From Frankia sp. AiPs1 (GTDB taxonomy: Bacteria; Actinomycetota; Actinomycetes; Frankiales; Frankiaceae): a stretch of DNA of 46,997 nucleotides. The position numbers were made by a program, and so were the translations under genes. Shown in pieces: positions 1-27,360 of the stretch (position 1 is its first letter; each line of letters starts with the position of its first letter). The notes below the pieces were generated by a model. The model worked only from the letters and a program-made list of their open reading frames with translations. It did not search any database and was not told where the DNA came from. The stretch lies in the NCBI RefSeq assembly GCF_023716945.1, contig NZ_JAMQQF010000006.1, positions 1 through 46,997 on the forward strand, given 5' to 3'.

Positions 1-633
1 CCGCAGGGCTGCCCGTTCGCGTCGCCGGTCGAGCGCGGCGACGGCCTGGGCGATCGAGGGCAGCTCCGCGGCGTCCCCGGCCCCGGCCCCGGCCGGCAGC
101 GTTGCGGCAGGTCGGGCCGCTGAGCTGCCGGTGGGCCGGTCGACGCCGTCGCGGCCGAGGACATTCGGGAGATCGGCGAGGTCGTCGGCGGTGAGGTCGA
201 TGCCCCGCGGCCGGAACCAGTCGCCGGTCGGCGTGTACGAGGCGAAGCCGCCCAACGCAGGCTCCTCGCCGGACACGGAGACCTCGCCGGGTGCCGGGAC
301 CTCGCCGGGTGCCGGGATCTGACCGAAGTCGGGGCTCGTGCCGGAGGAGGACACCTGACCGAGGGTCGGCGTGTCAGCGAGAGCGGCCGAGCCACCGCCG
401 GCGGCAGGGTTCCGGCCGTTGCCGCCGTTGCCGCCCTTGCCGCTACCGCCGTCACGCACGGGACCGACCGCGCTGCCGGATCCGGCGGAAGGGCTCCCCG
501 ATGCCGGGGGCACCGCCAGCAGTCCGGACAAGGGCACGTGGTTCCAGACGCGGGGCGGGGCCGATGCCGACGGGCCCACCCCCGGCGGCCGTCCCACCGG
601 GCGCAACGGCAACTCCTGATCGCTCCTACGCAC
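1..633 (-). CDS. Unrecognised protein, 3' end cut by window edge
   Basis: The minus strand is open from the left edge to beyond position 660, and G or C fills nearly every third codon position, as expected of a real gene here. All three forward frames are stopped in this stretch. The best start seen is a GTG at 633-631, but the Shine-Dalgarno is weak and the start is uncertain. The visible 211 residues begin with a Pro/Gly/Ser-rich low-complexity stretch that includes a GKGGNGGNGRNP run and the tandem PAPGEV PAPGEV (18-bp DNA repeat at 281-317). A better conserved-looking segment follows, with FASYTPTGDWFRPRG and DLTADDLADLPNVLGRD. No signal peptide or membrane segment is visible in this part. 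It is divergent from the conservon genes, with only 14 bp between starts. I do not recognise the family. In most conservons a sensor kinase gene stands here, and this gene does not look like one. Confidence 0.6.
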   Translation of the reverse strand, partial: MRRSDQELPLRPVGRPPGVGPSASAPPRVWNHVPLSGLLAVPPASGSPSAGSGSAVGPVRDGGSGKGGNGGNGRNPAAGGGSAALADTPTLGQVSSSGTSPDFGQIPAPGEVPAPGEVSVSGEEPALGGFASYTPTGDWFRPRGIDLTADDLADLPNVLGRDGVDRPTGSSAARPAATLPAGAGAGDAAELPSIAQAVAALDRRRERAALR

Positions 634-647
634 GGCCGGAGAAAAGC

Positions 648-1067
648 ATGAACACGAGAACCCGTGACCTCGACTGGCTGCTGGAGAACCTGTTGGAGCG
701 GACTCCGGGAACCCGACACGCCCTGGTGCTCTCCAAGGACGGGCTCAAGCTCTGCCGCAGTTCCGGGCTCAGCGTTGATCAGGCGGACCAGCTCGCCGCC
801 ATCGCCTCCGGGATCCAGAGTCTCTCGCACGGCGCGTCGGTGGAGTTCGGGGATGGCAGCGGCGGCGTGCGGCAGTCCATGACCGAGTTCCACGGCGGGC
901 TGCTGTTCATCATCGAGGCCGGCCAGGGCGCTCACCTCGCCGTCGTGGCGACCGATGACGCCGACGCCGGCGTCATCGGGCACAACATGAACGAGCTGGT
1001 CGAGCAGATCGGCGACTACCTCAGCGCCCCGCCCCGCGAGGCCGCCCCCGGGTTCGCGGCCTCGTGA
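648..1067 (+). CDS. cvnB: Roadblock/LC7 domain protein (conservon CvnB type)
   Basis: This 139-aa protein has the Roadblock/LC7 fold: an N-terminal helix (DLDWLLENLLERTPGTRHAL), the strand-turn ALVLSKDGLKL, and a C-terminal helix after VVATDDADAGVIGHNMNELVEQ. In Streptomyces conservons the CvnB protein works with the MglA-like GTPase CvnD, probably as a GTPase-activating or scaffold partner downstream of a membrane sensor kinase. The ATG at 648 has GGAGAAAAG just upstream and fits the family length. An open extension further upstream is unlikely, being Arg-rich and unlike any homologue. Its TGA overlaps the GTG of the next gene, so the two are probably translationally coupled. No CvnA-type kinase is adjacent upstream. 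Confidence 0.93.
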   Translation: MNTRTRDLDWLLENLLERTPGTRHALVLSKDGLKLCRSSGLSVDQADQLAAIASGIQSLSHGASVEFGDGSGGVRQSMTEFHGGLLFIIEAGQGAHLAVVATDDADAGVIGHNMNELVEQIGDYLSAPPREAAPGFAAS

Positions 1068-1423
1068 TCCGCGAGGCCATTGACGGAGAGAACCCCGACC
1101 GGCTCTACACCGTCACCGGCGGGCGCAGCCGCGCCGACGAGAACGCCTTCGACCTCGTCACGTTGATCGTCAGTGAGAGCGACCCGGCGCCGGGCATGCA
1201 GTCCGAGCACGCCGCGATCCTGCGGATGTGCCGAACGCCGGTCGCCGTCGTGGAGCTCGCCGCCGAGCTGAAGCTGCCGGTGAGCGTGGTGAAGATCCTG
1301 CTCTGCGACCTGCTGGACACCGGTCGGATCGCGGCGCGACATCCCTCGGCCTCCGTCGTCAGGACGCCGTTGCCCCATCCCGAGATCCTGAAGCAGGTGC
1401 TCGTTGGACTCAAGAAGCTCTGA
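1064..1423 (+). CDS. cvnC: DUF742 protein (conservon CvnC type)
   Basis: This 119-aa protein has the DUF742 pattern: an N-terminal RLYTVTGGRSRADE, then FDLVTLIV, then a winged-helix-like middle (EHAAILRMCRTPVAVVELAAELKLPVSVVKILLCDLLDTGRI) ending HPEILKQVLVGLKKL. DUF742 proteins sit between the Roadblock and GTPase genes of conservons, and in Streptomyces they associate with both. The start is a GTG that overlaps the upstream TGA by four bases (GTGA). The gene end overlaps the next start by about 20 nt. Assignment is by sequence pattern plus gene order. Confidence 0.93.
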   Translation: MIREAIDGENPDRLYTVTGGRSRADENAFDLVTLIVSESDPAPGMQSEHAAILRMCRTPVAVVELAAELKLPVSVVKILLCDLLDTGRIAARHPSASVVRTPLPHPEILKQVLVGLKKL

Positions 1424-2030
1424 GGTCACCGACCAGGCCCCGCCACGCTCCCGCGCCCCGCTGGCAAACACGGTCAACGACGCGCTGAAGATCGTGATCG
1501 TCGGCGGATTCGGGGTTGGTAAGACGACGATGGTCCGCGCGGTGAGCGAGATCCGTCCGCTGAGCACCGAGGAGACGATGACCGGCGCCGGCATCGGCAT
1601 CGACGACACGGGCAGCGTGCGGGAGAAGTCCACCACCACCGTTGCGTTCGACTTCGGCCGGATCAGCCTGAACGAGCGGATGGTGCTCTACCTGTTCGGC
1701 GCCCCCGGGCAGGAGCGCTTCTGGTTCCTGTGGGACCGGCTGTTCGCGGGCACGCTCGGCGCGGTGGTCCTCGTCGACACCCGCCGGGTCGCGGACTCCT
1801 GGTACGCGATCGACCGGCTGGAACACCACGGGATGCCCTTCATCGTCGCGCGCAACAACTTCGGCGAACCGGAGCACACGCTGCCGCAGTTGCGCGAGGC
1901 GTTGTCGCTGTCCGACGACGTCCCGCTCGTCGACTGCGACGCCCGGCACCGCGCGTCGAGCAAGTCGGTGCTGATCGCACTTGTCAACCACCTGTACGCC
2001 CTGTCCACCGCCCGGGAGACCTCGCCGTGA
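1404..2030 (+). CDS. cvnD: MglA-like small GTPase (conservon CvnD type)
   Basis: This is a 208-aa GTP-binding protein of the conservon class. The P-loop GGFGVGKTT lies at about residues 35-43. A Thr-rich switch I (STTTVAFDFGRI) and a G3-like FGAPGQERFWFLWD follow, with Ala-Pro where Ras-type GTPases have Asp. The usual NKxD motif is replaced by ARNNF, and a G5-like VDCDAR is present. These deviations are usual in this family. The start is a TTG at 1404 inside the end of the DUF742 gene. This is the only start that keeps the short leader before the P-loop, and no better ATG/GTG exists. The TGA overlaps the GTG of the P450 gene. It probably switches between GTP and GDP forms under control of the Roadblock and DUF742 partners. 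Confidence 0.92.
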   Translation: MDSRSSEVTDQAPPRSRAPLANTVNDALKIVIVGGFGVGKTTMVRAVSEIRPLSTEETMTGAGIGIDDTGSVREKSTTTVAFDFGRISLNERMVLYLFGAPGQERFWFLWDRLFAGTLGAVVLVDTRRVADSWYAIDRLEHHGMPFIVARNNFGEPEHTLPQLREALSLSDDVPLVDCDARHRASSKSVLIALVNHLYALSTARETSP

Positions 2031-3307
2031 CACATCCGCACCACGACCACGTCGACGGCTGGGGGCCGGCCGTGGCGGACCACCCGGCGCCGGCCCCGGG
2101 CTTCCCGGACCATCCGGGGGCGGTCCGGCTGTACGGCCCGCGCTTCCAGCACAACCCGGCGCAGATGTACCGGGAGATGCGCCGCGTCCACGGCCCCGTC
2201 GCGCCGATCCTGCTCGAGGGTGACATCCCCGCCTGGCTGGTCCTCGGCTACCGGGAGCTGCACTACGTGACGAGCAACCCGGAGCTGTACGGCCGCGACC
2301 CGCGCCGTTGGAACGCCTGGGACCGGATCCCGCCGGACTGGCCGCTGCTCCCCGTCGTCGGCTACCAGCCGTACACGATGCACCTGGAGGGCGTCGAGTT
2401 CGAGCGCCGCTCCGCGATCATGAACGACGTGCTCAGCGACGTGGACCTGTTCGAGCTGCGGGCGCTGTGCGAACGGACCTGCGACGAGCTGATCGACGGT
2501 TTCGCCGGGCGCGGCGAGGCGGACCTCATCACCGAGTACGCCCAGTCGATGCCGATGCTGCTGACCGGCCGCATGATCGGCATTCCCGAGGCCGGCCTGC
2601 CCGAGCTGCTCGCGTCGATGAACGCGGCCACGGACGGCTCCGGCCCGGAGGCGGTCGCCGGCCACGCCCGGTACGTCGCCATCATCAACGCGCTGCTGGC
2701 CGACCGGCGGGCCCGCCCCCGGGCCGACCTCCCGTCCGCGCTGCTCGCCCATCCCGGGAAGCTGACCGACGAGGAGGCGTCCTGGGACCTGCTGCTGATC
2801 GTCGGGATCGGCCAGCAGCCGATCACCGACTGGATCGGTAACACGCTGCGGCTGATGCTCACCGACAGCCGCTTCGCCGTCACCCTTTCCGGTGGCCGGC
2901 GCAGCGTCGCGCAGGCGCTCAACGAGGTGCTGTGGGAGGACACCCCGCTGCAGAACATGTCCGGCCGCTGGGCGATCCGCAGCACCCAGCTCGCCGGCCA
3001 GCACATCCAGGCCGGTGACATGCTCGTGCTGAGCTGCGCCGCGGCGAACGGCGACCCGCAGGTGCGGCCGGACTCCTTCGACGGCCCCGGCGGCAACCAC
3101 GCCCACATGTCGTTCGGCCACGGCGAGCACCGCTGCCCGTATCCCGCGCAGGAGATCGCCGAGACGATCGTGCGGGGCGCCGTCGAGGTGCTGCTCGACC
3201 GGCTGCCCGACGCCGTCCTCGCCGTCTCCCCCGACGCACTGGTCTGGCGTCCGTCACCCTGGCTGCGCGGCCTGTCCGCCCTGCCGGTGCACTTCTCGCC
3301 GGCCTGA
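2027..3307 (+). CDS. Cytochrome P450, CYP157-like (conservon CvnE type), ExxR motif absent
   Basis: This 426-aa protein ends with the haem-binding loop FGHGEHRCP, Cys370 being the fifth haem ligand. The K-helix position that carries the near-universal ExxR reads E300-V-L-W303, so the Arg is missing. The I-helix reads GIGQQPITDW (about 261-269) and lacks the usual acid-Thr pair used for oxygen activation. Both features match the CYP157 family of Streptomyces conservons, where loss of ExxR is established. The GTG start overlaps the GTPase stop by four bases (GTGA), so expression is coupled to the signalling genes. Known CYP157 members have no clear substrate, and a sensing or structural role is as likely as monooxygenation. 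Redox partner genes are not nearby. Confidence 0.92.
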   Translation: MTHPHHDHVDGWGPAVADHPAPAPGFPDHPGAVRLYGPRFQHNPAQMYREMRRVHGPVAPILLEGDIPAWLVLGYRELHYVTSNPELYGRDPRRWNAWDRIPPDWPLLPVVGYQPYTMHLEGVEFERRSAIMNDVLSDVDLFELRALCERTCDELIDGFAGRGEADLITEYAQSMPMLLTGRMIGIPEAGLPELLASMNAATDGSGPEAVAGHARYVAIINALLADRRARPRADLPSALLAHPGKLTDEEASWDLLLIVGIGQQPITDWIGNTLRLMLTDSRFAVTLSGGRRSVAQALNEVLWEDTPLQNMSGRWAIRSTQLAGQHIQAGDMLVLSCAAANGDPQVRPDSFDGPGGNHAHMSFGHGEHRCPYPAQEIAETIVRGAVEVLLDRLPDAVLAVSPDALVWRPSPWLRGLSALPVHFSPA

Positions 3308-3395
3308 CCCACCGGGCGACGGGCCGCCGACCTGCCGTAGAGCCGCCGTAGAGCCGCTGGACGGTCGCCGGAGGGTCATCGGAGAGCCGACGAGC

Positions 3396-4244
3396 TCAGA
3401 CCTCGCCGGAGCGGGGGGCCAGCGCCCAGGCGAGGGCAAGGTCGGCGACCTCCTCCCAGCCGGGCACGCTGGCCGTCAGGTGCGGGCGGCCCGGGAACTC
3501 GTGGTACGCCGTGATCGCCCCCGACTTACGCTGGCGGGTGTACGTCTCCCGGCTCACCGATGCCGGGACGGTGTGGTCGGCGCCGTTGCCGAGGACCAGC
3601 AGCGGCGCCCGGTCGGTCTTCCCGAAGTCGACCTTGCTCGGCGCCTTCGGGTTGACGTTCGCGAACGCGGCCTGCCACAGCGGCCGGCCCGGGGTGGGCA
3701 CCTGCAGGCGCGCGAACAGCTCGTCGGACTCGGCCCGGCTGACCGTGTTCGCGAACGCGTAGAACCACTGGTCCGCGGTCAGCCCGACCACCCGGCCGCG
3801 AGTCGCCGGCTTCGTCAGCACCGGCGCCGACGAGCGCAGGGTGGCCAGCGGCAGCCGCAGCACGCCCTTCACCGGCGCGGGCGAGATCGCCACCCCGGCC
3901 GCCCCGAGCCCACGGTCGAGCAGAAGCTGGACGATCAGCCCGCCGAACGAGTGCCCGACGAGGATCGGCGCCTCCGGCAGGGCCGCGACGATCTTCGCGT
4001 AGCTGTCCGTCACCTCGGTCACGCCGACGTGGTTGTCGGCGGTCGGCGCGTCCCGCAACGCCTCGAGGTCACGGTCCATCCCCGGCCACTCCGGGGCGAG
4101 ACCGGAGTGCCCCCGGGCGGCGAACCGGTCGATCCACGGCTGCCAGCTCGCCGACGTCAGCCACAGCCCGTGAATGAAGACGATCGTGTGCCCCGCACTC
4201 GCGACGTTCGGTTCGGATTCGGCGGCCGGGCTGATGTCGCTCAC
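3396..4244 (-). CDS. Alpha/beta hydrolase
   Basis: This is a 282-aa alpha/beta-hydrolase-fold enzyme. The oxyanion-hole motif FIHGLW lies at about residues 23-28 and the nucleophile elbow GHSFGG at 97-102, with Ser99 as the probable nucleophile. A late Asp in LGNGADHTVP and a His in GRPHLT complete a plausible triad. There is no signal peptide, so it is probably cytoplasmic. The substrate cannot be read from sequence, and relatives include lipases, haloperoxidase-like enzymes and esterases. The ATG at 4244 gives an N-terminus that reaches the first strand after a short Ser/Glu-rich tail. It is convergent with the P450 gene. The 88 bp between them carry a partial CGTAGAGCCGC repeat and no clear hairpin. 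Confidence 0.9.
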   Translation of the reverse strand: MSDISPAAESEPNVASAGHTIVFIHGLWLTSASWQPWIDRFAARGHSGLAPEWPGMDRDLEALRDAPTADNHVGVTEVTDSYAKIVAALPEAPILVGHSFGGLIVQLLLDRGLGAAGVAISPAPVKGVLRLPLATLRSSAPVLTKPATRGRVVGLTADQWFYAFANTVSRAESDELFARLQVPTPGRPLWQAAFANVNPKAPSKVDFGKTDRAPLLVLGNGADHTVPASVSRETYTRQRKSGAITAYHEFPGRPHLTASVPGWEEVADLALAWALAPRSGEV

Positions 4245-4476
4245 GTGGGCTCCTCGACGCTCGCGGATGCTCGTCCCCCGGCCCGCCTCGGTAGCGTGAC
4301 ACGTCCGGAATCCGGAAGGTGAGGTCGGAGATCGCCATCATCGACGGAAGCGCCGGTCCGGCGCACTGTGACCCGCGTCGCACTATGACCCGCGTCACAC
4401 TGTGACCACCACCCGGCTCGCATCCCGCGGCCGAAGGCTTCGAGGACCACCCCAACCCGGGTAGGATCGCCCCGCG

Positions 4477-4549
4477 GGGCCGTTAGCTCAATTGGCAGAG
4501 CAGCCGGCTTTTAACCGGCGGGTTCAGGGTTCGAGTCCCTGACGGCCCA
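4477..4549 (+). tRNA. tRNA-Lys (anticodon UUU)
   Basis: A full cloverleaf can be drawn. The acceptor GGGCCGT pairs with ACGGCCC, the D-arm is GCTC/GAGC, and the anticodon stem GCCGG/CCGGC encloses the loop CTTTTAA with anticodon TTT. The T-arm is CAGGG/CCCTG around TTCGAGT, and the discriminator base is A. The 3' CCA is not encoded exactly, since CCCA follows. The gene stands alone between the alpha/beta hydrolase and a broken XRE gene. A second, decayed copy of its T-arm sequence lies about 110 bp downstream. Confidence 0.97.
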
Positions 4550-4611
4550 CCCACTTTCTGGTCATGCTTCTGACCTGGGTGAATACGGTTCGCGATCGAT
4601 CGCTTTAAGAT

Positions 4612-4670
4612 CCAGCACCATGGAACAGTGCTGGTCAGGGCCTTGACATCTGGTTCGAGCCCTGACCGGA
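4612..4670. repeat. Twin hairpins with a decayed copy of the tRNA-Lys T-arm
   Basis: CCAGCAC at 4612-4618 pairs with GTGCTGG at 4628-4634. GGTCAGGG at 4633-4640 pairs with CCCTGACC at 4660-4667, so the two stems share two bases and are mutually exclusive. The loop and 3' arm of the second stem read GGTTCGAGCCCTGACCGG. Compared with GGTTCGAGTCCCTGACGG in the adjacent tRNA, this differs by one missing T and one added C. It may be a relic of a tRNA 3' end left by past integration, or a degenerate tRNA duplicate. It could also act as a structured 3' trailer of the tRNA transcript. Confidence 0.5.
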
Positions 4671-4747
4671 CAACCATGTTGCAGCCATGCGAACCGCCTC
4701 CGCCTGGCCGAGACGCTGGGGGCGGGCGACGCTACTGGTCGTCGGTG

Positions 4748-5026
4748 TTAGGTCAGGCGGTACTCCCGATCGCCGAAATCGGCGACGATGCGAAGCTTGC
4801 CACCGAGGGCACCAACATAGGCACGCAGGGTGGAGAGGGTGACGCTGTCGAGTTCGCCCCGTTCGAGGGCGGAGACGCGCGGCTGGGAGACTCCCATCGC
4901 GGCGGCGAGGTCGGACTGGGTGCGGTCCTGCTCGGCACGGACCTGGGTGAGGTGCCACGCCCGGATGTGATCTTCGGTAACCCCACGTTATTACCGTTGC
5001 GCCGGGACCCCAACCCCATCGGTCAT
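4748..5026 (-). pseudogene. XRE-family HTH protein with two tandem in-frame stops
   Basis: The minus strand encodes RGVTEDHIRAWHLTQVRAEQ, then a classic HTH (TQSDLAAAMGVSQPRVSALE), then LDSVTLSTLRAYVGALGGKL and RIVADFGDREYRL. This is the XRE antitoxin-like type often paired with RelE/HigB toxins. The 79-codon frame (4987-4748) has no ATG or GTG before the HTH. In the same frame just upstream lies ATG at 5026 behind AGAGGA, encoding MTDGVGVPAQR, followed by TAA TAA at 4993-4988 and then the HTH part. The gene therefore looks intact except for two consecutive stops after codon 11. It is either a recently inactivated gene or one that starts internally. Local initiation at the ATG of MGVSQ would lose the first HTH helix. 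No toxin gene is adjacent. Confidence 0.7.
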
Positions 5027-5093
5027 TCCTCTGACCGGGTGAAAAGGACACCCGCGGTCGCCACCGGCGGCCGCCGGATCAGTACGACCAACG

Positions 5094-5783
5094 TTACCCG
5101 GCCGCGCGATTCTCGGAGACGGCCTCGCGCAGCGGGGCGCCAGCGACATCGTGGGCGGCGACGTCAGGAAGGGCGGACCCGCCCAGCGGTTCGCCATGCC
5201 ACTGAACGAGGTTCCAGCCGGCCGAGGGGTCGCCTTCGAGCGTGACCATTCCGGTGTTCGCGAGCCACCGACCCTCGACGGACCCGATGTCGCCGACCCG
5301 TATGCCGACCCAGGTTCGGATCGCGGCACCGTGACTGACGAGCACGAGAGCGTCGTTCCTGCGGTGTGTGGCCGCGATGTTCGCGATCGCGGTGTCATAG
5401 CCGGCGACGAACATGTGACCGTTCGGCCCACCCGGCATCACACGGTCCAGATCGCCGTGGATCCAGGCGGCGGTGACGTCGAAGTAGGCCGCGATGGCTG
5501 TCTTGTCGCTGCGCAGCTCGAGCTCGCCCGCGGCGATCTCCTCGATGCCTTCCACAACTCCGACTCCCAGCCCCCGTGATTCGGCGAGGGGCGCCGCGGT
5601 GAGCTGGGTGCGAACGAGGACCGAGGCGTAGATCGCCGAGATCGTCTCACCGCGGAGTGCGTCGGGCAGCGCGCCGGCCTGCGCGTGGCCCAGGGCGGTC
5701 AGCTCGGCTCCCGGCCGCCCCGTGTCGAGGGCGCCGACGATGTTGGAGGGGGTTTGGCCATGTCGGAGCAGCATCAGGCGCAT
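5094..5783 (-). CDS. Histidine phosphatase family protein (phosphoglycerate mutase-like)
   Basis: This 229-aa protein opens with MRLMLLRHGQTPSN. The LRHG motif (His8 is the phospho-acceptor) is at the extreme N-terminus, as usual for this superfamily. The acid/base and second His region includes GIEEIAAGELE and the late LVSHGAAIRTW. It probably hydrolyses a small phosphate ester in the cytoplasm. Branch-level assignment (mutase, cobalamin-pathway phosphatase or broad phosphatase) is not possible by eye. The frame remains open far upstream on the minus strand, but the family N-terminus and lack of conservation fix the start at 5783. The 270 bp to the divergent gene at 6056 contain no gene I can support. 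Confidence 0.92.
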   Translation of the reverse strand: MRLMLLRHGQTPSNIVGALDTGRPGAELTALGHAQAGALPDALRGETISAIYASVLVRTQLTAAPLAESRGLGVGVVEGIEEIAAGELELRSDKTAIAAYFDVTAAWIHGDLDRVMPGGPNGHMFVAGYDTAIANIAATHRRNDALVLVSHGAAIRTWVGIRVGDIGSVEGRWLANTGMVTLEGDPSAGWNLVQWHGEPLGGSALPDVAAHDVAGAPLREAVSENRAAG

Positions 5784-6055
5784 CGCGACCGAGTCTAGCG
5801 TTGGCGCCGTGGCAGAGCTGTTTCCCCTGCATGCGCTCGTCGACGAGCTACCCCGCGGGACGCCGACACCGCCGGCCGGTCCTGGCCCAGGGCTCACGTG
5901 GTCGCGGATGCCGACCCACCCGGCCGGACATTCACCCCACGTTGGATAGGTCCGCCGGTCATTGCTCCACGGCCCGTCGTGGCGTAACCACGTCGACGTA
6001 GGCGTGAACCAGGAGGAACGTCGCGGCCGCGAGGCGAGACCGGGGAGGTTCCAGG

Positions 6056-6964
6056 GTGCCGGAGCATGTGCCGGAGCGTGGCGTCGCAGCTCAGCCGGGT
6101 GTGGTGCCCGGGATTCGCCGGGCCGCGGGCACCATGTTCGCTGCTTTGTACGGCGAGTTGGTTCCGCATGCCTGGCGCGATCCCGGGTCGGAGCTGGACG
6201 CCTACTCGCTTTTCTACCATCGGTCGATCGCCATGGGTTGGCTTGACGACACCTCGGCCGGGGGCGGCATCGAGGACCGCATGCGGCGCGCACCGGGGCT
6301 GTGGGGCATGAACGACGCCGGGTGGAGTCACCCCCTCGCTGCCGCCGGAGCGGGGCTGATCTCGTGGTTCCAGGTCGGGGCGAGCGCGGTGGCCGACGAC
6401 CGGCCGCTGCCGGTGCAGCCGTTCCTGCGGTGCGCCGTGGACGCGACAGCGCGGGCCGGCACGCCGCACCTGTCCACGGTGCAGGTTCTCCTGCCGGTGC
6501 AGGGTCTCGACCCCGCGTCGCGCCCGCCGTACGCGCCCGTGCCGGCGATCCAGACGGTCCCCTGGTTCACCGAGTGCGATCCGGCTGCACGAACGTCGGT
6601 GAAGGTCAACATCAACAGTGGCCGGGATCCGGTGATCGGTGCTGTCGCCCAGCGCCTCGTCGACCACCTTGGCCGCCTGGATCAGCACGCGTTCGCCTGC
6701 GGATCCCACGAGGTCGCAGGCCAGGACGCCGTCGTCCCTCCGCCGCTCCACGACCGCTCCTGGAACGGCCCTTGCCTGCACGGCGTGGCGCTACGTGGCG
6801 AGCTGGCAGAATGGTCGTGCGACGCGGTCGGGTGGCTGGCCGAAGCTGTCGCCGACTGCACCGCCCGCCTTGGCATCCGCCTGCCTCTGCTACTCACCGT
6901 CACCCGTTCCCGCGATGGGATGATCACGACGCCCGCGCCGGAGGCTTCTCGCTACAGCAGGTGA
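6056..6964 (+). CDS. Unrecognised 302-aa protein
   Basis: The codon use is typical of the neighbours and the reading frame is long. The GTG start is preceded by GGGGAGG with good spacing. The protein has soluble character, with no signal peptide or membrane helix. Notable segments are AAGTMFAALYGELVPHAW near residue 25, SLFYHRSIAMGWLDD, TVQVLLPVQGLDP, VKVNINSGRDPVIGAVAQRLVDHLGRLDQHAF, and ELAEWSCDAVGWLAEAVADCTARLG. The later segments look like regular alpha/beta structure. I do not recognise a family. It is divergent from the histidine phosphatase gene and is followed by the RpiR-type regulator after 170 bp. The competing frame on the opposite strand has poor third-position GC and no family resemblance. 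Confidence 0.75.
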   Translation: MPEHVPERGVAAQPGVVPGIRRAAGTMFAALYGELVPHAWRDPGSELDAYSLFYHRSIAMGWLDDTSAGGGIEDRMRRAPGLWGMNDAGWSHPLAAAGAGLISWFQVGASAVADDRPLPVQPFLRCAVDATARAGTPHLSTVQVLLPVQGLDPASRPPYAPVPAIQTVPWFTECDPAARTSVKVNINSGRDPVIGAVAQRLVDHLGRLDQHAFACGSHEVAGQDAVVPPPLHDRSWNGPCLHGVALRGELAEWSCDAVGWLAEAVADCTARLGIRLPLLLTVTRSRDGMITTPAPEASRYSR

Positions 6965-7032
6965 TGGAAGGCGCGGTCACTGTGCACGCGCCAGCAGCGA
7001 CCCGGGTCGAACGCCCCAGGATTCCGGCACCA

Positions 7033-7073
7033 TGAAATGTATTTTCGACCCGTCGATCCAGGTGAAACGTTCA
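7033..7073. promoter_or_regulatory. Palindromic sites upstream of the RpiR-type regulator
   Basis: TGAAATGTATTTTCG at 7033-7047 is an imperfect inverted repeat (TGAAA...TTTTC). TGAAACGTTCA at 7063-7073 is a perfect TGAA-N3-TTCA palindrome. A half-site TGAAATTC lies at 7123-7130, just before the start codon. MurR/RpiR-family regulators such as NagR-like proteins often bind TGAAAT-type palindromes. These are therefore good candidates for autoregulatory operators of the gene starting at 7137. The stretch is also locally AT-rich, as expected of a promoter. Confidence 0.45.
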
Positions 7074-7136
7074 TCCGTGCTTCATCTGGGCACGATCGGG
7101 TGTTCCAGGGCGGGGCCTAACGTGAAATTCGTGACC

Positions 7137-8057
7137 ATGACCCCGCAGAACGTCACCCAACCCGGACCCGCGGGCGTCGCGCCCGGCTCGCCCGGCTCGC
7201 ATGGCTCGCATGGCTCCCTCGGCCCGATCATGGAGCACGTCCGCGCCAATTCCGCGTCGCTGTCGGCGGCCGAGCAGCGGGTCGCCCGAGCCATCCTGTC
7301 CGACCCGGTCGGGGTCGTGCATCTGTCGGTCAGCGACCTGGCCCAGATCGCCGGCAGCTCCCCGGCGACGGTGGTGCGGTTCTGCCAGGCGCTGGGTCTG
7401 CGGGGCTTCCAGGAGCTGAAGCTGGCGCTGGCCCGCGAGTCGATCCCGGCCGAGCGACAGCTGCTCGACGAGATCGAGCCGGGCGACGGTCCGGCCGAGG
7501 TGACCACCAAGGTCCTCTCCGGCGCGGCCAATGCCCTGCAGTCAGCCGCCCAGTCGGTCAACGCCGAGGCGATGGGGCAGGTCGCCGAACTGCTCGGAGA
7601 CGCCCGTCGCATCGTCTTCGCCGCCGTCGGTACCTCGGCCTCGCTCGCCGCCGACGTCGCCTACCGCTTCACCACCATCGGACTCGACGCCTCCTTCGCC
7701 GCCGACGTGCACGTCCAGCACGTCACGGCTCGGATGCTCACCGCCGAGGATCTGTGCTTCGCGATCAGCCACACCGGCTCGACCGTCGAGACCCTGGCCA
7801 CCGTCCGAGCCGCCGCCGCTGCGGGCGCCGCGACCGTGGCGCTGACCAGCTTCGCCACCTCGCCACTCACCGAGCTCGTCGATCACGTGCTGGTGGCCGG
7901 GAGTCGCGAAACCGCCTATCGCATCGAGGCGATGACCAGCCGCATCGTCCACCTGACCATCCTCGACGCGCTGTTCGTGCTGCTGGCCCTGCGCCAGCCC
8001 AACGCCCAGCTCGCCCTCGCCGAGACCGCCGACATCCTCATCGAACACCGCCTGTAA
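7137..8057 (+). CDS. MurR/RpiR-family transcriptional regulator (HTH + SIS domain)
   Basis: This is a 306-aa regulator. After a Gly/Ser/His-rich tail of about 25 residues comes the HTH_6 domain: IMEHVRANSASLSAAEQRVA, then DLAQIAGSSPATVVRFCQAL, the recognition helix region. The C-terminal SIS domain contains IVFAAVGTSASLAADVAYRF and the signature CFAISHTGSTVETLATV, which in this family binds sugar phosphates or amino-sugar phosphates. The ATG at 7137 (or the GTG six bases earlier) is preferred. The frame continues upstream to 7032, but that part covers the palindromes. It stands first before the ABC/phosphatase operon and presumably controls it. A SIS ligand-binding domain fits a phosphorylated inducer. 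Confidence 0.92.
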   Translation: MTPQNVTQPGPAGVAPGSPGSHGSHGSLGPIMEHVRANSASLSAAEQRVARAILSDPVGVVHLSVSDLAQIAGSSPATVVRFCQALGLRGFQELKLALARESIPAERQLLDEIEPGDGPAEVTTKVLSGAANALQSAAQSVNAEAMGQVAELLGDARRIVFAAVGTSASLAADVAYRFTTIGLDASFAADVHVQHVTARMLTAEDLCFAISHTGSTVETLATVRAAAAAGAATVALTSFATSPLTELVDHVLVAGSRETAYRIEAMTSRIVHLTILDALFVLLALRQPNAQLALAETADILIEHRL

Positions 8058-8140
8058 CACCACCTGTAACACCGCCCGTACACCGCGTGTGACCCCCGCT
8101 GCACCCAACCATTTCCGCCGACCGCCGTGGCCCGAACGGC

Positions 8141-8174
8141 CATGCCGTGCTGCCCGAAACATGCCGTGCTGCCC
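8141..8174 (+). repeat. 15-bp direct repeat before the operon start
   Basis: CATGCCGTGCTGCCC occurs twice, at 8141-8155 and 8160-8174, at 19-bp spacing. It lies between the regulator gene and the first enzyme gene (start 8198). The rest of the 140-bp gap contains a loose CTGTAACACC repeat just after the regulator stop and the ribosome binding site GAAAGGGAG. Spacing of about two helical turns would suit a protein-binding site, but a chance duplication is possible. Confidence 0.5.
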
Positions 8175-8197
8175 ACGAGCAGCGAAAGGGAGAAGCG

Positions 8198-10396
8198 ATG
8201 CAGGGAAAAGTGCTCGGCGCGCGGGGGGAGCCCGTCCCCAACGTGATGATCAGCGACGGACAGACGATCACGCGCACCGGCTTTGACGGCACGTTCAGCC
8301 TGACCCCCACCGGGCCGTTCGTGTTCCTCACCCGCCCGGCCGGCTTCACCGCGGCCCCGTGGTTCGTCCCGGCCACCGCCACCGACGTCACCTTCACCCT
8401 CGTCCCGGGCGAGACCGCCGACAGCGGCGTCTACCGGTTCGTGCACGTCTCTGACCTGCACGTCTCGGTCGACAACGGCACGAAGTTCTACCCGCCGGGT
8501 GCGGAGATCGGTTCACAGGACGCGCTGAGCCTGTTCCTGCGCGGGCTGCCCGAGCGGGCGGCCGAGGTGCAGTCGGTGATCGCCACCGGTGACCTCACCG
8601 ACCTGGGCAGCGACGCCGAGTTCGACGCGCTGCGCCGGGCGGTCGACACCTCGACCCTGCCGGTGCACGTGCTACCCGGAAACCACGACCACATGGCCGG
8701 CGGCGACGAAGTCGGCTTCGTCGTCAGTCGAAACAACTACGCGATCAACACCGGTGAGCCGAGCGGCTACGAACGCAACCTCGGTCCCCGCTGGTTCTCC
8801 TTCGACCTGCCGGGCCTGCACGTGGTGGCGCTCGACTGGCACACCCACGAACTCGGCCTCGACGACGCGGCCCAGGATGCCTGGCTGCGGGCCGACCTCG
8901 AGGAGATCGGGCCGACCACCCCGTGGATCCTGCTCAGCCACGACCAGCCCTGGACCTCCATTCTCGACGGGCTGCCCAGCGACCCGGTGGCCACCTTCTC
9001 CGGGCACCGGCACACGTCCCGGGTGGTTCGCATCGGCAGGACGATTCATGTCAACACGCCGACGCCGCTGTTCGCCGGGCTGGACTACTCGCCCCCGTCG
9101 TACCGGATCGTGCGCTGGGACGGCGAGCAGCTCGGCCTGGAGACACGGGCCATCGCCCGCACCGGCCTGGAGCGGGCCACCTTCGCGATGCCGGCGGCGA
9201 TCCACCGCGGCACCGCCGGGGGTAACGCGGCCGAGGGCGGCGCCGGCGGGGGCGACGCCAGCGAGGGGGATGCCAGCGAGGGGGATGCGGTCGTGCGCTG
9301 GCGCCACCAGCTCTCCGGAGCCGGTCACCGGGCGCCGGTCCGCGTCGAGGGCGATCGGGTCATCGCCGGCGTCAAGCGCGAGGACCTCCCCTCGGGCGCG
9401 GTCGAGGTGCTGTCACTGCGCGACGGATCCCAGCTGTGGCAGGCCGAGCTACGGGCCTCGACCAAGGGCACGCCGGTGACCCACCACGGTCACGTCATCG
9501 CCGTCGAGGTGAGCGGCGACGTCGTCAGCCTGGACGCCGAGACCGGCACCGAGCGCTGGCGGGTTCCGTCACCGGACCCGCTGCGGCTGTTCGCCTGGGC
9601 CGATCCGGTGGTCGCCGACGGCATCCTCATCGTCGGCGACCTGTCCCACGTGCGCGCCCTGGACGCCGACACCGGTGAGCTGCGCTGGGAGCGCACCGAC
9701 CTGTGCGCGTACCAGACGCTGGTCTCGCACTCCAACCCGCTCGTGCTCGGCGACACCCTCATCCTCGCCAACTTTCCGGCACCGATCGGCATCGCCGGCC
9801 TCGACCTGCACACCGGCGAGGTCACCTGGCAGCTCGGCGGCAACCTCACCGATCTCATCGGCAGCCTCTGGCCCATCGGCACCCCGCTCTACGACCAGGC
9901 CAGCGACACGTTGTGCGTGCCGACCCCGTCGGGGTTGTCGGCCATCGACGCCCGCGACGGGGCGGGCCGCTGGCAGCTCACCACCGAGCTGCCGTTCAGC
10001 CCGGCCACCCCGGCCTCGGTCCCCGACGGCATCGCGGCCGTCTTCGCCGGCACCGACGTCGTCCTGCTCGACCGGGTCGACGGCTCGATCCGATGGCGCA
10101 CGCCGATGGAGTCGGCCGCCGAGCTCGCGATGGCCAGCTACACCCGCACCCCGCAGGTGCTGTTCGCCGGACCGGTACCCGTCCCGGCCGAGGACGGCTC
10201 CGACGGCTCGGTGCGGCTGTTGGTCTCCGGCCTCGACGGGCACATCTACGCCCTCGACGCCGCGTCGGGCAAGCGGCTGGCCGAGGTGAACGTCGGCGCC
10301 CCGGTCGCGGCGCCGGTGGCCGTCACCGACGAGCTGATCATCGCCATCGCGGTCGACGGGGTGGTCACCGCCATCGAACGAAACGCGCTGCTGTGA
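8198..10396 (+). CDS. Metallophosphoesterase fused to a PQQ-type beta-propeller
   Basis: This 732-aa protein has three parts. Residues 1-75 form a small beta domain like the MetalloPhosN/carboxypeptidase-regulatory fold (VPNVMISDGQTITRTGFDG). Residues 80-290 are a calcineurin-type phosphoesterase with all metal-site motifs visible: DLH at 86-88, GDLTD at 131-135, GNHDH at 161-165, the SHD at 247-249 and GHRH at 269-272. A repeat linker (NAAEGGAGGGDASEGDASEG, about 345-365) leads to a C-terminal WD/PQQ-like propeller. Its blades have repeated motifs such as DAETGTERWRV, DADTGELRWER and DLHTGEVTWQL. Propeller blades of this kind can be purely structural and do not imply the PQQ cofactor. No signal peptide or membrane helix is seen, so a cytoplasmic phosphate mono- or diesterase is likely. 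The ATG at 8198 is backed by GAAAGGGAG. The stop overlaps the permease start. Confidence 0.93.
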   Translation: MQGKVLGARGEPVPNVMISDGQTITRTGFDGTFSLTPTGPFVFLTRPAGFTAAPWFVPATATDVTFTLVPGETADSGVYRFVHVSDLHVSVDNGTKFYPPGAEIGSQDALSLFLRGLPERAAEVQSVIATGDLTDLGSDAEFDALRRAVDTSTLPVHVLPGNHDHMAGGDEVGFVVSRNNYAINTGEPSGYERNLGPRWFSFDLPGLHVVALDWHTHELGLDDAAQDAWLRADLEEIGPTTPWILLSHDQPWTSILDGLPSDPVATFSGHRHTSRVVRIGRTIHVNTPTPLFAGLDYSPPSYRIVRWDGEQLGLETRAIARTGLERATFAMPAAIHRGTAGGNAAEGGAGGGDASEGDASEGDAVVRWRHQLSGAGHRAPVRVEGDRVIAGVKREDLPSGAVEVLSLRDGSQLWQAELRASTKGTPVTHHGHVIAVEVSGDVVSLDAETGTERWRVPSPDPLRLFAWADPVVADGILIVGDLSHVRALDADTGELRWERTDLCAYQTLVSHSNPLVLGDTLILANFPAPIGIAGLDLHTGEVTWQLGGNLTDLIGSLWPIGTPLYDQASDTLCVPTPSGLSAIDARDGAGRWQLTTELPFSPATPASVPDGIAAVFAGTDVVLLDRVDGSIRWRTPMESAAELAMASYTRTPQVLFAGPVPVPAEDGSDGSVRLLVSGLDGHIYALDAASGKRLAEVNVGAPVAAPVAVTDELIIAIAVDGVVTAIERNALL

Positions 10397-24643: not shown

Positions 24644-27322
24644 TCAGTCGCCCGGTGAGGAGCGCCCGGTCTGGTGGCTGGTGAGGAGTTGTGCGCGGCG
24701 GTGGACGTCGCGGGGGGAGCAGCGGCGGTCGAGGCGAGTCTGCAGAAGTGACTGGGCGACGTCGCGCCGGTTGGCCTGGATGGCACAGTAGATCGTGGTG
24801 TCCTCGACGATCTCACGCTGGGCGGCGCTGCCCCCGAGCCGCTCGACGCCGGGCAACGCGATCAGCGCGTCGGTCGCCCGATCGGGATCACCGTGCAGAA
24901 GGTGCATCAGGGCGTCAGCCAGCGGCGCGACCGTGTCGGTGAACACCTCGCTGCTCCGGGCGGCCGCGGACCGGCGCAGTTGCGCGAGTCGGCGGCAGTC
25001 CCCCACGGCGGCGAGGGCGATGGCCGAGTGGAGCCCGACGAAGGGCGTCGGCGGATCGACGAGCAACGCGCCGGGTACGGTCTCCAACACCGGTCCGAGT
25101 TCCACCGACGTCCAGGCGCCGGCCGCGAAGCCGCGCCACAGCAGCGACGCCGAGTCGATCAGGGCCCGGACGCCGGAGACGGCCGGCGGCGAGAGCTGGG
25201 CCGAGAAGCGTGCCCGGGTCGCGTTGTCGTCACCGAGTGCGAGTTCGTGCAGGGCCGCATGCCAGGAGAAGTGCGCCCGATACGACGAATCCGACCCGCA
25301 GGTCGAGATCCAGGCGTCCAACCAGGCCAGCCCCGCCTCGTGGTCGCCGGTCTCGTAGTGGACGTGGGTCTTCGCGTGGACGGCGTGACCGGCGGTCGGT
25401 TCGACGGCCAGCGCCAGCGCGGCGAGTTCGGCCGCCTCGTCCCACCGCTCCTGCTCCTGGCGGGTGAAGGCGAGCAGCCCCCGGTACCACCAGTCGTCGC
25501 GGTAGACGGCGGCGAGTCCTTCGACCAGGGCCCAGGCCTCGGCCGGCAGCTCCGTCGCGCCGTTGAACGCGATCGTCGGCACGGCGATGCTGACGGCCAG
25601 GGCGTCTTCCGGGTATGCCTGGATGTAGCTGAGCAGTGCCGCGGCCGAACCGGCTCCCCCCGGCTCGCGGATGCGGTCGGCGACGACCTCGATGAAGCGC
25701 CGTTCACGCTCGTCGGCCCGGCCGGCGTGGCGTTGCGCCTCCCGCAGGGCCGTTTCCACGTCGACATCGGCGCCCCACTCGGCGCCGAGCAGCGCCAGCA
25801 CCGCCTGTCCGAGGGCGAACTGGGGGTCGGCCGCGACCGCTTCGGCCACCAGCGATTCGGCGCCGGACCGGACCCGCAGGATCCGTCCGAGCCCGGCGAC
25901 GTAGCGACCGGCCGCCGCCGGGCTGGCGGTGAGGGGCAGGCCGTAGGGGTCGCGCACCCGCCGAACGACCCGTGGCCCGGGCAGGGCGGTCACGATGGCG
26001 CGGGCGAGCGCGGCGGCCTGGCCGCGGATCTCGGGAATCGCCGTGCTCTCCCACAGCTCCCCGCGCCGCAGCGGTCCGATGGCCCAGATGGCCGGCCGGG
26101 GACCGTCGGCCGCGACCAGCCGCCCGGACGCCTCGGTGGCGAAGCCCAGGTCCAGGCCGTCCGGGGTCGCCAGGCCGGTGGCGAGCAGGTTCATGACGAG
26201 GGGATCGTGGCTGGTCCGCACGCCGGCGCCCGCACCGGTGCAGTTGACCACGGCCGCGGCGAGTACCCGCGAGCCGTCGCTGAGCGAGACCTCGACGCCG
26301 GCCGCGGTGTCGGCAGCGTCGACGACCCGCGCGGCGTGCACGACCAGCGATCCCTCGGCGCGGCGTTGCTCCAGCCAGGCGTGGATGGCGGGGTCGACCC
26401 GGTGTCGTGCCCGGTCCCAGCGCCGCATCGTCGTGGCGACGAAGCTCGCCCGGCCAGCCGCGTCCAGGCGTGACCACAGCTCGGCCGTCACCGGGCGCAT
26501 CGCGTCCACGGCCCGCCGCCAGTCACCATCGGCCGCCCGGATGTGATCGAAGACAAGCCGACGCGCCTGGCCGAGGCTCACCGGTCCGTCGGGCAGCTCC
26601 GGGGCGGCGAACGGCGGCGCCGGCTCCAGCGCGTGGGGCAACGGAAGCAGCCCATGACGCGAGGTCACATGCAGGCGCACGCCGGCCCGGCTCCAGCGCT
26701 GGGCCATGTCGGCCATGGTCAGGCCCGAGCCGACGAGCAGCACGTCGCTGCCGGCCGGGACGTGCGGCGGGGCATCCGCCCGCCACGGATCACCGACGAA
26801 CCGGGGCGACCGGGCCAGCGCCGGCGGAGCCCACGACGTCGGCGCAGCGCCGTGTCCGAGCGCGAGGACGACGCCGTCGACCGAATGGCTGGTCCCGTCG
26901 TCGAGCGTGAGGCGCAGCCGCCGGCCGTGCCGGCGGACGTCCGTCGCTCGGGCGCACACCCGCTCGTAGCGCACCCCGCTCGCGGCGCGCAGCGTCTCCT
27001 CCAGCGTGTGGCGGAGGTAGTCGGCAAAGAACTGGCGGGGCGCGAAACCCCCGGCCGGAAAGTCGACCGCGACGTGCCGACGAAGCCAGCGCAGGAAGTG
27101 CTGCGGGTCATCGTCGAACGCGCTCATCTTCGCGGCCGGGACGTTGAGCCGGTGCCGCGGATCTCGCGTCAGATACGCCAGCCCCTCGCCGACGTCGTCT
27201 GGTTCGACGAGCAGTATCGTGAAGCTTCGGCCGGTAACCGCCACGGACCTTGCTAGCTGGGCGGTGGCGAGGCAACCGCTTGCCCCCCCACCCACCACCG
27301 CGACGACCACCGGCGCACTCAT
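24644..27322 (-). CDS. FAD/NAD(P)-binding protein fused to TTC38-like helical repeats
   Basis: This 892-aa protein has two clearly different halves. Residues 1-450 form a FAD/NAD(P)-binding oxidoreductase-like module of the NAD_binding_9 type: VVAVVGGGASGCLATAQLAR at the start, HRLNVPAAKMSAF, a second dinucleotide site LLVGSGLTMADMAQRW near 195-210, and the late AIWAIGPLRRGELWESTAIP. Residues 480-870 resemble tetratricopeptide protein 38. They include YPEDALAVSIAVP, LLAFTRQEQERWDEAAELAA, EPTAGHAVHAKTHVHYETGD and AHFSWHAALHELALGD, which are helical pairs with the TTC38 HAxxHVxYETG signature. The ATG at 27322 is chosen because it gives the glycine-rich loop at residue 8. It also overlaps the stop of a leader ORF that has the strong ribosome site. 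Frames further upstream are open but low quality. I have not seen this fusion described. Confidence 0.88.
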   Translation of the reverse strand: MSAPVVVAVVGGGASGCLATAQLARSVAVTGRSFTILLVEPDDVGEGLAYLTRDPRHRLNVPAAKMSAFDDDPQHFLRWLRRHVAVDFPAGGFAPRQFFADYLRHTLEETLRAASGVRYERVCARATDVRRHGRRLRLTLDDGTSHSVDGVVLALGHGAAPTSWAPPALARSPRFVGDPWRADAPPHVPAGSDVLLVGSGLTMADMAQRWSRAGVRLHVTSRHGLLPLPHALEPAPPFAAPELPDGPVSLGQARRLVFDHIRAADGDWRRAVDAMRPVTAELWSRLDAAGRASFVATTMRRWDRARHRVDPAIHAWLEQRRAEGSLVVHAARVVDAADTAAGVEVSLSDGSRVLAAAVVNCTGAGAGVRTSHDPLVMNLLATGLATPDGLDLGFATEASGRLVAADGPRPAIWAIGPLRRGELWESTAIPEIRGQAAALARAIVTALPGPRVVRRVRDPYGLPLTASPAAAGRYVAGLGRILRVRSGAESLVAEAVAADPQFALGQAVLALLGAEWGADVDVETALREAQRHAGRADERERRFIEVVADRIREPGGAGSAAALLSYIQAYPEDALAVSIAVPTIAFNGATELPAEAWALVEGLAAVYRDDWWYRGLLAFTRQEQERWDEAAELAALALAVEPTAGHAVHAKTHVHYETGDHEAGLAWLDAWISTCGSDSSYRAHFSWHAALHELALGDDNATRARFSAQLSPPAVSGVRALIDSASLLWRGFAAGAWTSVELGPVLETVPGALLVDPPTPFVGLHSAIALAAVGDCRRLAQLRRSAAARSSEVFTDTVAPLADALMHLLHGDPDRATDALIALPGVERLGGSAAQREIVEDTTIYCAIQANRRDVAQSLLQTRLDRRCSPRDVHRRAQLLTSHQTGRSSPGD

Positions 27323-27360
27323 CGGGACCGTCGACAGTATGTGTGCGGACACCTGGGCAT
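27319..27360 (-). CDS. 13-aa leader peptide ORF coupled to the FAD-TTC38 gene
   Basis: On the minus strand GGAAGGAG stands five bases before ATG (27360-27358). It opens a 13-codon frame, MPRCPHTYCRRSR, whose TGA (27321-27319) overlaps the ATG of the large gene as ATGA. No comparable ribosome site serves the large gene alone, so its translation should depend on the short one. The peptide has two cysteines (positions 4 and 9) and a basic end. Short coupled ORFs rich in Cys are known in actinobacteria as cysteine-responsive attenuators of downstream genes. The alternative reading is that the large protein starts earlier, at ATG 27382, and that this ORF is accidental. Confidence 0.55.
   Translation of the reverse strand: MPRCPHTYCRRSR

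Follow-up and report, generated by a model that had tools for sequence, protein, structure and literature searches.

A single gene on the minus strand of a 46,997-nucleotide stretch of DNA from Frankia sp. AiPs1 (contig NZ_JAMQQF010000006.1, positions 1 to 46,997; hereafter the window) encodes an 892-residue protein in which a flavin adenine dinucleotide (FAD)/nicotinamide adenine dinucleotide (phosphate) (NAD(P)) flavoprotein is continued, in the same reading frame, by a TTC38-like helical domain (24644..27322). The fusion recurs in one frame across many actinobacterial genera, both halves are conserved, and the helical domain carries its own set of invariant residues. We read the product as a polypeptide with two sites, i.e., a flavin monooxygenase joined to a second site in the helical half that would act on the same substrate or product, and give this interpretation a probability of roughly 0.45. 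All features described below lie on the minus strand, and their positions are those of the window.

Gene, frame and recurrence of the fusion

The gene runs from an ATG at 27322 to a stop codon at 24644-24646 as one frame of 892 codons that links the flavin half to the TTC38-type half, just as an earlier interpretation made from the sequence alone (the sequence-only reading) had described, though without naming the strand. The same frame stays open farther upstream and would give 1011 residues if counted from a GTG, and the start at 27322 is the likely one because the stop codon of a short leader open reading frame (ORF) forms an ATGA overlap with that ATG. On the plus strand, the interval contains stop codons and also an overlapping frame of 526 residues. 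The length of an open frame is by itself weak evidence of a gene in a GC-rich genome, and it is conservation that proves this one. Of 57 other genomes searched, 13 have near full-length copies with 85-95% identity. The ratio of nonsynonymous to synonymous substitution rates (dN/dS) is 0.17-0.22 for each half when the window is compared with four Frankia relatives, and 0.37 for the flavin half and 0.22 for the helical half in comparison with the more distant Jatrophihabitans. These low ratios indicate that purifying selection acts on both halves, and together with the conserved copies they establish that the gene is real. The window genome has no second close copy, its sole other match being 31% identical to part of the flavin half. 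AlphaFold2 models the whole protein with a mean predicted local distance difference test score (pLDDT) of 90.8 and a predicted template modelling score (pTM) of 0.62.

The domain pair, which the sequence-only reading had proposed to look for in other genomes, was found there. The named relatives are the best 80 of 264, picked by their similarity to the window protein, so that the fused share among them is not transferable to more distant relatives. They comprise 69 single-frame fusions, one copy that is split (L114), one truncated at a contig end (L118) and 9 single helical genes, one of which (L179) begins 159 bases from a contig end. The junction itself (residues 449-457, 25952..25978) is in frame here and uninterrupted in the 69 fused loci, which belong to Frankia, Parafrankia, Jatrophihabitans, Kribbella, Mumia, Nocardioides, Marmoricola, Aeromicrobium, Streptomyces, Amycolatopsis, Kibdelosporangium, Kineosporia and unassigned metagenome-assembled genomes (MAGs). 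The split copy is from a draft genome of Parafrankia soli (L114, positions 6026-8339), where it is spread over frames and is either a true pseudogene or a draft error.

The two halves and their invariant residues

The N-terminal half (residues 1-448, 25979..27322) resembles a flavin monooxygenase with the class B N-hydroxylase fold, and its residues 8-157 match Pfam NAD_binding_9 (PF13454) with an E value of 1.4e-41. The two glycine-rich loops claimed for this half in the sequence-only reading are both present. The first, GGGASG at residues 11-16, has the N-terminal GxGxxG form of an FAD-binding loop and marks the predicted FAD site (residues 5-30, 27233..27310); all 28 rows of the FAD-half alignment keep G11 and G13. 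The second, VGSGLTMAD at residues 197-205, belongs to a second Rossmann domain and marks the predicted NAD(P)H site (residues 193-223, 26654..26746), with G198, G200, L201 and D205 invariant in the same alignment. Between the two dinucleotide domains, the secondary structure of the AlphaFold2 model places a helical insert at about residues 225-325 (26348..26650), which is the arrangement of a class B fold and the position at which the N-hydroxylase FzmM has its substrate domain; R276, W283, W302, R306 and H307 are invariant columns in the insert. The flavin half also exists without the helical half in several lineages.

The C-terminal half (residues 458-885, 24668..25951) is predicted to be a superhelix of the tetratricopeptide repeat (TPR) type. 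When modeled by itself with AlphaFold2 it reaches a pLDDT of 92.6 and a pTM of 0.90, and comparison of the model by Foldseek and VIA-align matches helical-repeat and TPR proteins, with no solved structure among the matches that accounts for the histidine site described below. No Pfam TPR model is above its cut-off in this half (the best, TPR_19, scores 10.5 bits against 25), none matches at an E value of 0.01 when the helical half is searched alone, and no Pfam or NCBIfam model named TTC38 or StaR was returned for the scanned proteins. The TTC38-type signature reported in the sequence-only reading, HAVHAKTHVHYETGD, is present at residues 646-660, and the family name itself rests on similarity to other bacterial TPR-type proteins. 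The helical half is a putative member of the TTC38/StaR family (human TTC38, StaR of Streptomyces toyocaensis; CDD cd05804), which the motif makes plausible. TTC38-like proteins are present in at least four bacterial phyla and also occur in animals and plants; StaR is said to have once been guessed to be a flavoprotein hydroxylase, and neither human TTC38 nor StaR is known to bear a flavin domain.

Two histidine motifs stand out in this half. An HxxxH motif (residues 649-657, 25352..25378; H649, H653, then E657) lies in one helix, 645-658, and an HxxWH motif (residues 684-692, 25247..25273; H684, W687, H688, then H692) lies in the first helix of the next pair, 682-696. H649, H653, H684, W687 and H688 are invariant in 56 of 56 rows of one alignment, from which identical copies and matches of fewer than 330 aligned residues (L016, L021, L071) were excluded, and in 21 of 21 rows of another, chosen by hand, whose TTC38-like proteins come from four bacterial phyla; E657 and H692 are not universal. 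In the 21-row alignment 15 positions are invariant, including these five together with R730, S832 and Q835, and the invariant set of the helical half also takes in R539 and D573. Because the same His/Arg/Gln/Ser set is kept in stand-alone helical relatives that lack a flavin half, it suggests an active or ligand site belonging to the helical half itself. From their positions on the model helices, most of the invariant residues appear to line the concave groove of the superhelix.

Distribution, separate halves and surroundings

Within the genus, the gene is present near full length in 8 of 12 other genomes and has no match in the remaining 4, which marks it as an accessory gene and not a universal one. 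Class-wide, 100 of 393 genomes match either half and 34 have a match across both, namely 14 in the family of the window (its own genome counted) and 20 outside it, all as single ORFs; two candidates were scored per genome, which makes these counts lower bounds. In a quick tree of the helical half, one fused clade unites 35 fused rows and the cut copy L118 with a support of 91. The sister group of this fused clade is a clade of 18 single proteins. A further fused row, L056, sits on a long branch outside the fused clade; its position may mean that fusion happened twice, or it may be a long-branch effect. In the corresponding quick tree of the FAD half, single FAD proteins fall within the fused set and there are 7 state changes, at least 5 of them forced by starred branches, in a count that does not separate gain from loss. 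The nesting of single flavoproteins among fused ones suggests, as the simplest reading of the trees, one fusion followed by repeated loss of the helical half.

The expectation that the two halves would also be found as neighboring genes was not borne out, as none of 40 stretches with a single half (approximately 6 to 16.5 kb long) contained the other half. No separate pair within 20 kb was found among 197 genomes of one family, Nocardioidaceae, so named through the match of genome G205 to Nocardioides solisilvae. The fusion occurs in 49 of these genomes; the other 148 divide into 20 with both genes separately, 15 with just the helical gene, 12 with just the FAD gene and 101 with neither. This corresponds to an odds ratio of 11.2 for co-occurrence of the separate genes (Fisher p of 6e-8, over genomes that are related to one another), where the counts omit a short helical fragment in each of G449 and G470, together with two second pieces of FAD genes; entering G449 as helical only gives an odds ratio of 10.4 and a p of 1.2e-7. 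Within the 49 fused genomes, an extra separate helical gene is present in 5 and an extra separate FAD gene in 1. The fused and the both-separate condition look like alternative states. We attach only moderate weight to this since the genomes are related, a single genus (g44) holds 17 of the 20 both-separate genomes, and the pairing outside that genus is weak (both genes in 3 genomes, the helical one alone in 12, the FAD one alone in 8).

The surroundings of the gene vary. An all-against-all comparison of the ORFs at the 80 named loci gave no conserved operon, as none of the 26 top clusters listed occurs in more than 15 loci outside Frankia. Compared with 145 other loci, the short-chain dehydrogenase/reductase (SDR), Nudix and secreted-protein neighbors of the window recur in none, and the methyltransferase and MarR genes recur in one each (L106 and L103, respectively). 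Among nine stretches with distant actinobacterial TTC38-like genes, disregarding the TTC38-like gene itself and its antisense frames, the shared neighbor is one downstream frame, found in the related L073, L075 and L182 only.

Several loci bring the family together with sulfate activation. In Kibdelosporangium aridum (L142, positions 6801-9887), a single frame of 1028 residues contains the FAD half, the TTC38-like half and an adenosine 5'-phosphosulfate (APS) kinase (PF01583, E value of 1.5e-66), and in a Streptomyces (L223, positions 6073-8157) the FAD half is joined directly to an APS kinase (E value of 1.4e-54); the latter fusion is followed, before the contig end, by what appears to be the first part of a cysD-like gene. 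In S. coelicoflavus and Streptomyces SYP-A7193, which are near-copies of one region, the FAD gene comes after cysC-cysD-GTPase and sulfonate-type ATP-binding cassette (ABC) genes. The arrangement of a stand-alone FAD gene immediately behind cysC, cysD, GTPase and sulfonate ABC genes is seen on the Streptomyces plasmids L101 and L193, with a condensation-domain gene and sugar genes close by, so that the region is possibly a natural-product cluster. S. albireticuli and S. eurocidicus have APS-kinase and sulfurylase-like genes directly upstream in the same orientation, and sulfate-activation genes lie farther off on the opposite strand in L097 and L151. In an even sample of Streptomyces, cysC or cysD is near the family gene in 1 of 31 places, that of L223 (three of the stretches are shorter than 8.5 kb). 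The two scored candidates from each of the 393 class genomes added no other fusion to an APS kinase. Since the link is this rare, we leave it out of the main claim.

Stand-alone TTC38-like genes were also viewed in ten annotated plasmid neighborhoods. A major facilitator superfamily (MFS) gene adjoins in three of these, as a raw count with no control frequency; in Paraburkholderia (L190) and Sinorhizobium (L099) it is the next gene. In a fourth, a Roseomonas gilardii plasmid (L100, positions 5836-8544), the TTC38-like domain is fused to an MFS transporter. In Mesorhizobium loti (L186, positions 456-7858) the TTC38-like gene is flanked by glutamine-synthetase-like and gamma-glutamyl hydrolase genes, with cytochrome P450, 2Fe-2S and permease genes upstream, in what is apparently an amine pathway. 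The remaining five of the ten showed no interpretable pattern.

Directly upstream of the gene in the window is the leader ORF (27319..27360), which has 13 codons, MPRCPHTYCRRSR, two of them for cysteine, and a strong Shine-Dalgarno sequence. Its layout is kept in the window and in all 11 Frankia and Parafrankia loci checked, with a variant form in a Jatrophihabitans MAG. A conserved cysteine-sensing peptide is unsupported by the codon differences, of which 31 are silent and 149 changing in the frame of the leader (80 and 124, and 28 and 153, in the other two frames, so that the leader frame does no better than these), and it is the layout that is conserved. By eye, the fused loci of Nocardioides (e.g., L132, L145, L152 and L172) have a recurring inverted repeat, approximately TAGTCNAGTNANTNACTNGACTA, immediately before the start codon, which looks like a repressor operator.

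Competing explanations and comparison with known systems

If the protein has two sites, the N-terminal half would function, judging from its fold and motifs, as a class B-like flavin monooxygenase in which NAD(P)H reduces the bound FAD and oxygen is then activated on the flavin. The substrate, oxygenated in a pocket shared with the helical insert, would be small and probably nitrogen-containing (nitrogen is suggested by the nearest structures only). The C-terminal superhelix would form a second, separate catalytic site of the metal or acid-base type that works on the substrate or the product of the flavin half, and the fusion would hold two successive steps together.

The TTC38-like half could instead be non-catalytic, a surface that binds a substrate (a peptide, or one attached to a carrier) or a partner protein and presents it to the flavin half. 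The sequence-only reading had named such a substrate- or partner-binding surface as a possibility, and this stands only in part, as the flavin half occurs alone and possesses a helical insert of its own, and the invariant His/Arg/Gln/Ser set of the helical half suggests an active or ligand site rather than a mere surface. The finding of one invariant set (four His together with Trp, Arg, Asp, Ser and Gln) across 21 proteins of four phyla also weighs against a purely binding role, and its persistence in stand-alone proteins with differing neighbors and in the MFS fusion suggests one fixed small ligand or reaction; we regard the non-catalytic role as possible but on the unlikely side. It is rather improbable, in our estimate, that the flavin half is a reductase or oxidase passing electrons to a metal on the TTC38-like histidines, where the real chemistry would take place. 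The HxxxH and HxxWH motifs, on the first helices of two adjacent pairs, could bind a metal, the two-Rossmann core is common to many pyridine-nucleotide reductases, and the distant Mesorhizobium gene has P450 and 2Fe-2S protein genes in its vicinity, all of which would fit such electron transfer.

That sequencing or assembly merged two adjacent genes is already refuted, even with the split Parafrankia soli draft copy in its favor. The sequence-only reading would have been overturned by halves that are apart in all relatives and a sequencing error at the junction. This is excluded because 69 of the 80 named loci, from many genera, carry the fusion as a single frame, and purifying selection acts on both halves; the single-contig assemblies G003 and G006 likewise carry both halves in one frame, and the separate halves were nowhere adjacent in the stretches and genomes examined.

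Returning to the polypeptide with two sites, the fusion and the invariant His/Arg/Gln/Ser set provide a concrete entry point to the biochemistry of TTC38-like proteins, and it is a genuine possibility that the members of the helical family are enzymes not yet recognised as such. If the helical half is catalytic, a TPR fold would be serving as an enzyme, and the association of human TTC38 with a metabolite would become testable; passages of two reports (PMC5780481, PMC7878905) associate a TTC38 missense variant and rare damaging variants with the level of the unidentified metabolite X-22162. A broader and more doubtful extension is that TTC38-like proteins, possibly human TTC38 included, are enzymes with a His-rich groove site, recruited in actinobacteria into a two-step flavin monooxygenase as its second module and rarely joined by a third module (APS kinase) that makes 3'-phosphoadenosine 5'-phosphosulfate (PAPS), in a pathway that may make or break an oxidised, sulfated small metabolite.

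Searches of the open-access literature turned up no paper on TTC38-like biochemistry, none joining TTC38 with bacteria and flavin, and none joining tetratricopeptide with N-hydroxylating monooxygenase. The fusion is already in databases under a generic name, and no paper on a flavin-TTC38 link was found in that literature: the Streptomyces RefSeq entries WP_327257990.1 and WP_329417872.1 are the same fusion as single ORFs, and their product name, "FAD/NAD(P)-binding protein," describes the flavin half only.

The closest comparison for the flavin half is with the class B N-hydroxylating aspartate N-hydroxylase FzmM/CreE (PDB 8cp2, 8cp5), to which it is 21% identical over the aligned residues. 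Passages of the FzmM study (PMC10404684) describe Trp51 as packing on the flavin and an arginine cluster as binding aspartate, and give the substrate-domain borders as 264-447. The residue corresponding to Trp51 is Tyr50 in the window protein, so the tryptophan of the aspartate N-hydroxylases is not present, and the helical insert comprises approximately 100 residues in place of the 264-447 domain. R276, R306 and H307 are conserved in the insert, and the profile alignment to FzmM leaves most of the FzmM substrate domain unaligned. FzmM (601 residues) lacks the C-terminal TTC38-like superhelix that is present here, whereas the bacterial stand-alone TTC38-like proteins, with 26-51% identity to the helical half, lack the flavin half and carry the same invariant His/Trp/Arg/Ser/Gln set.
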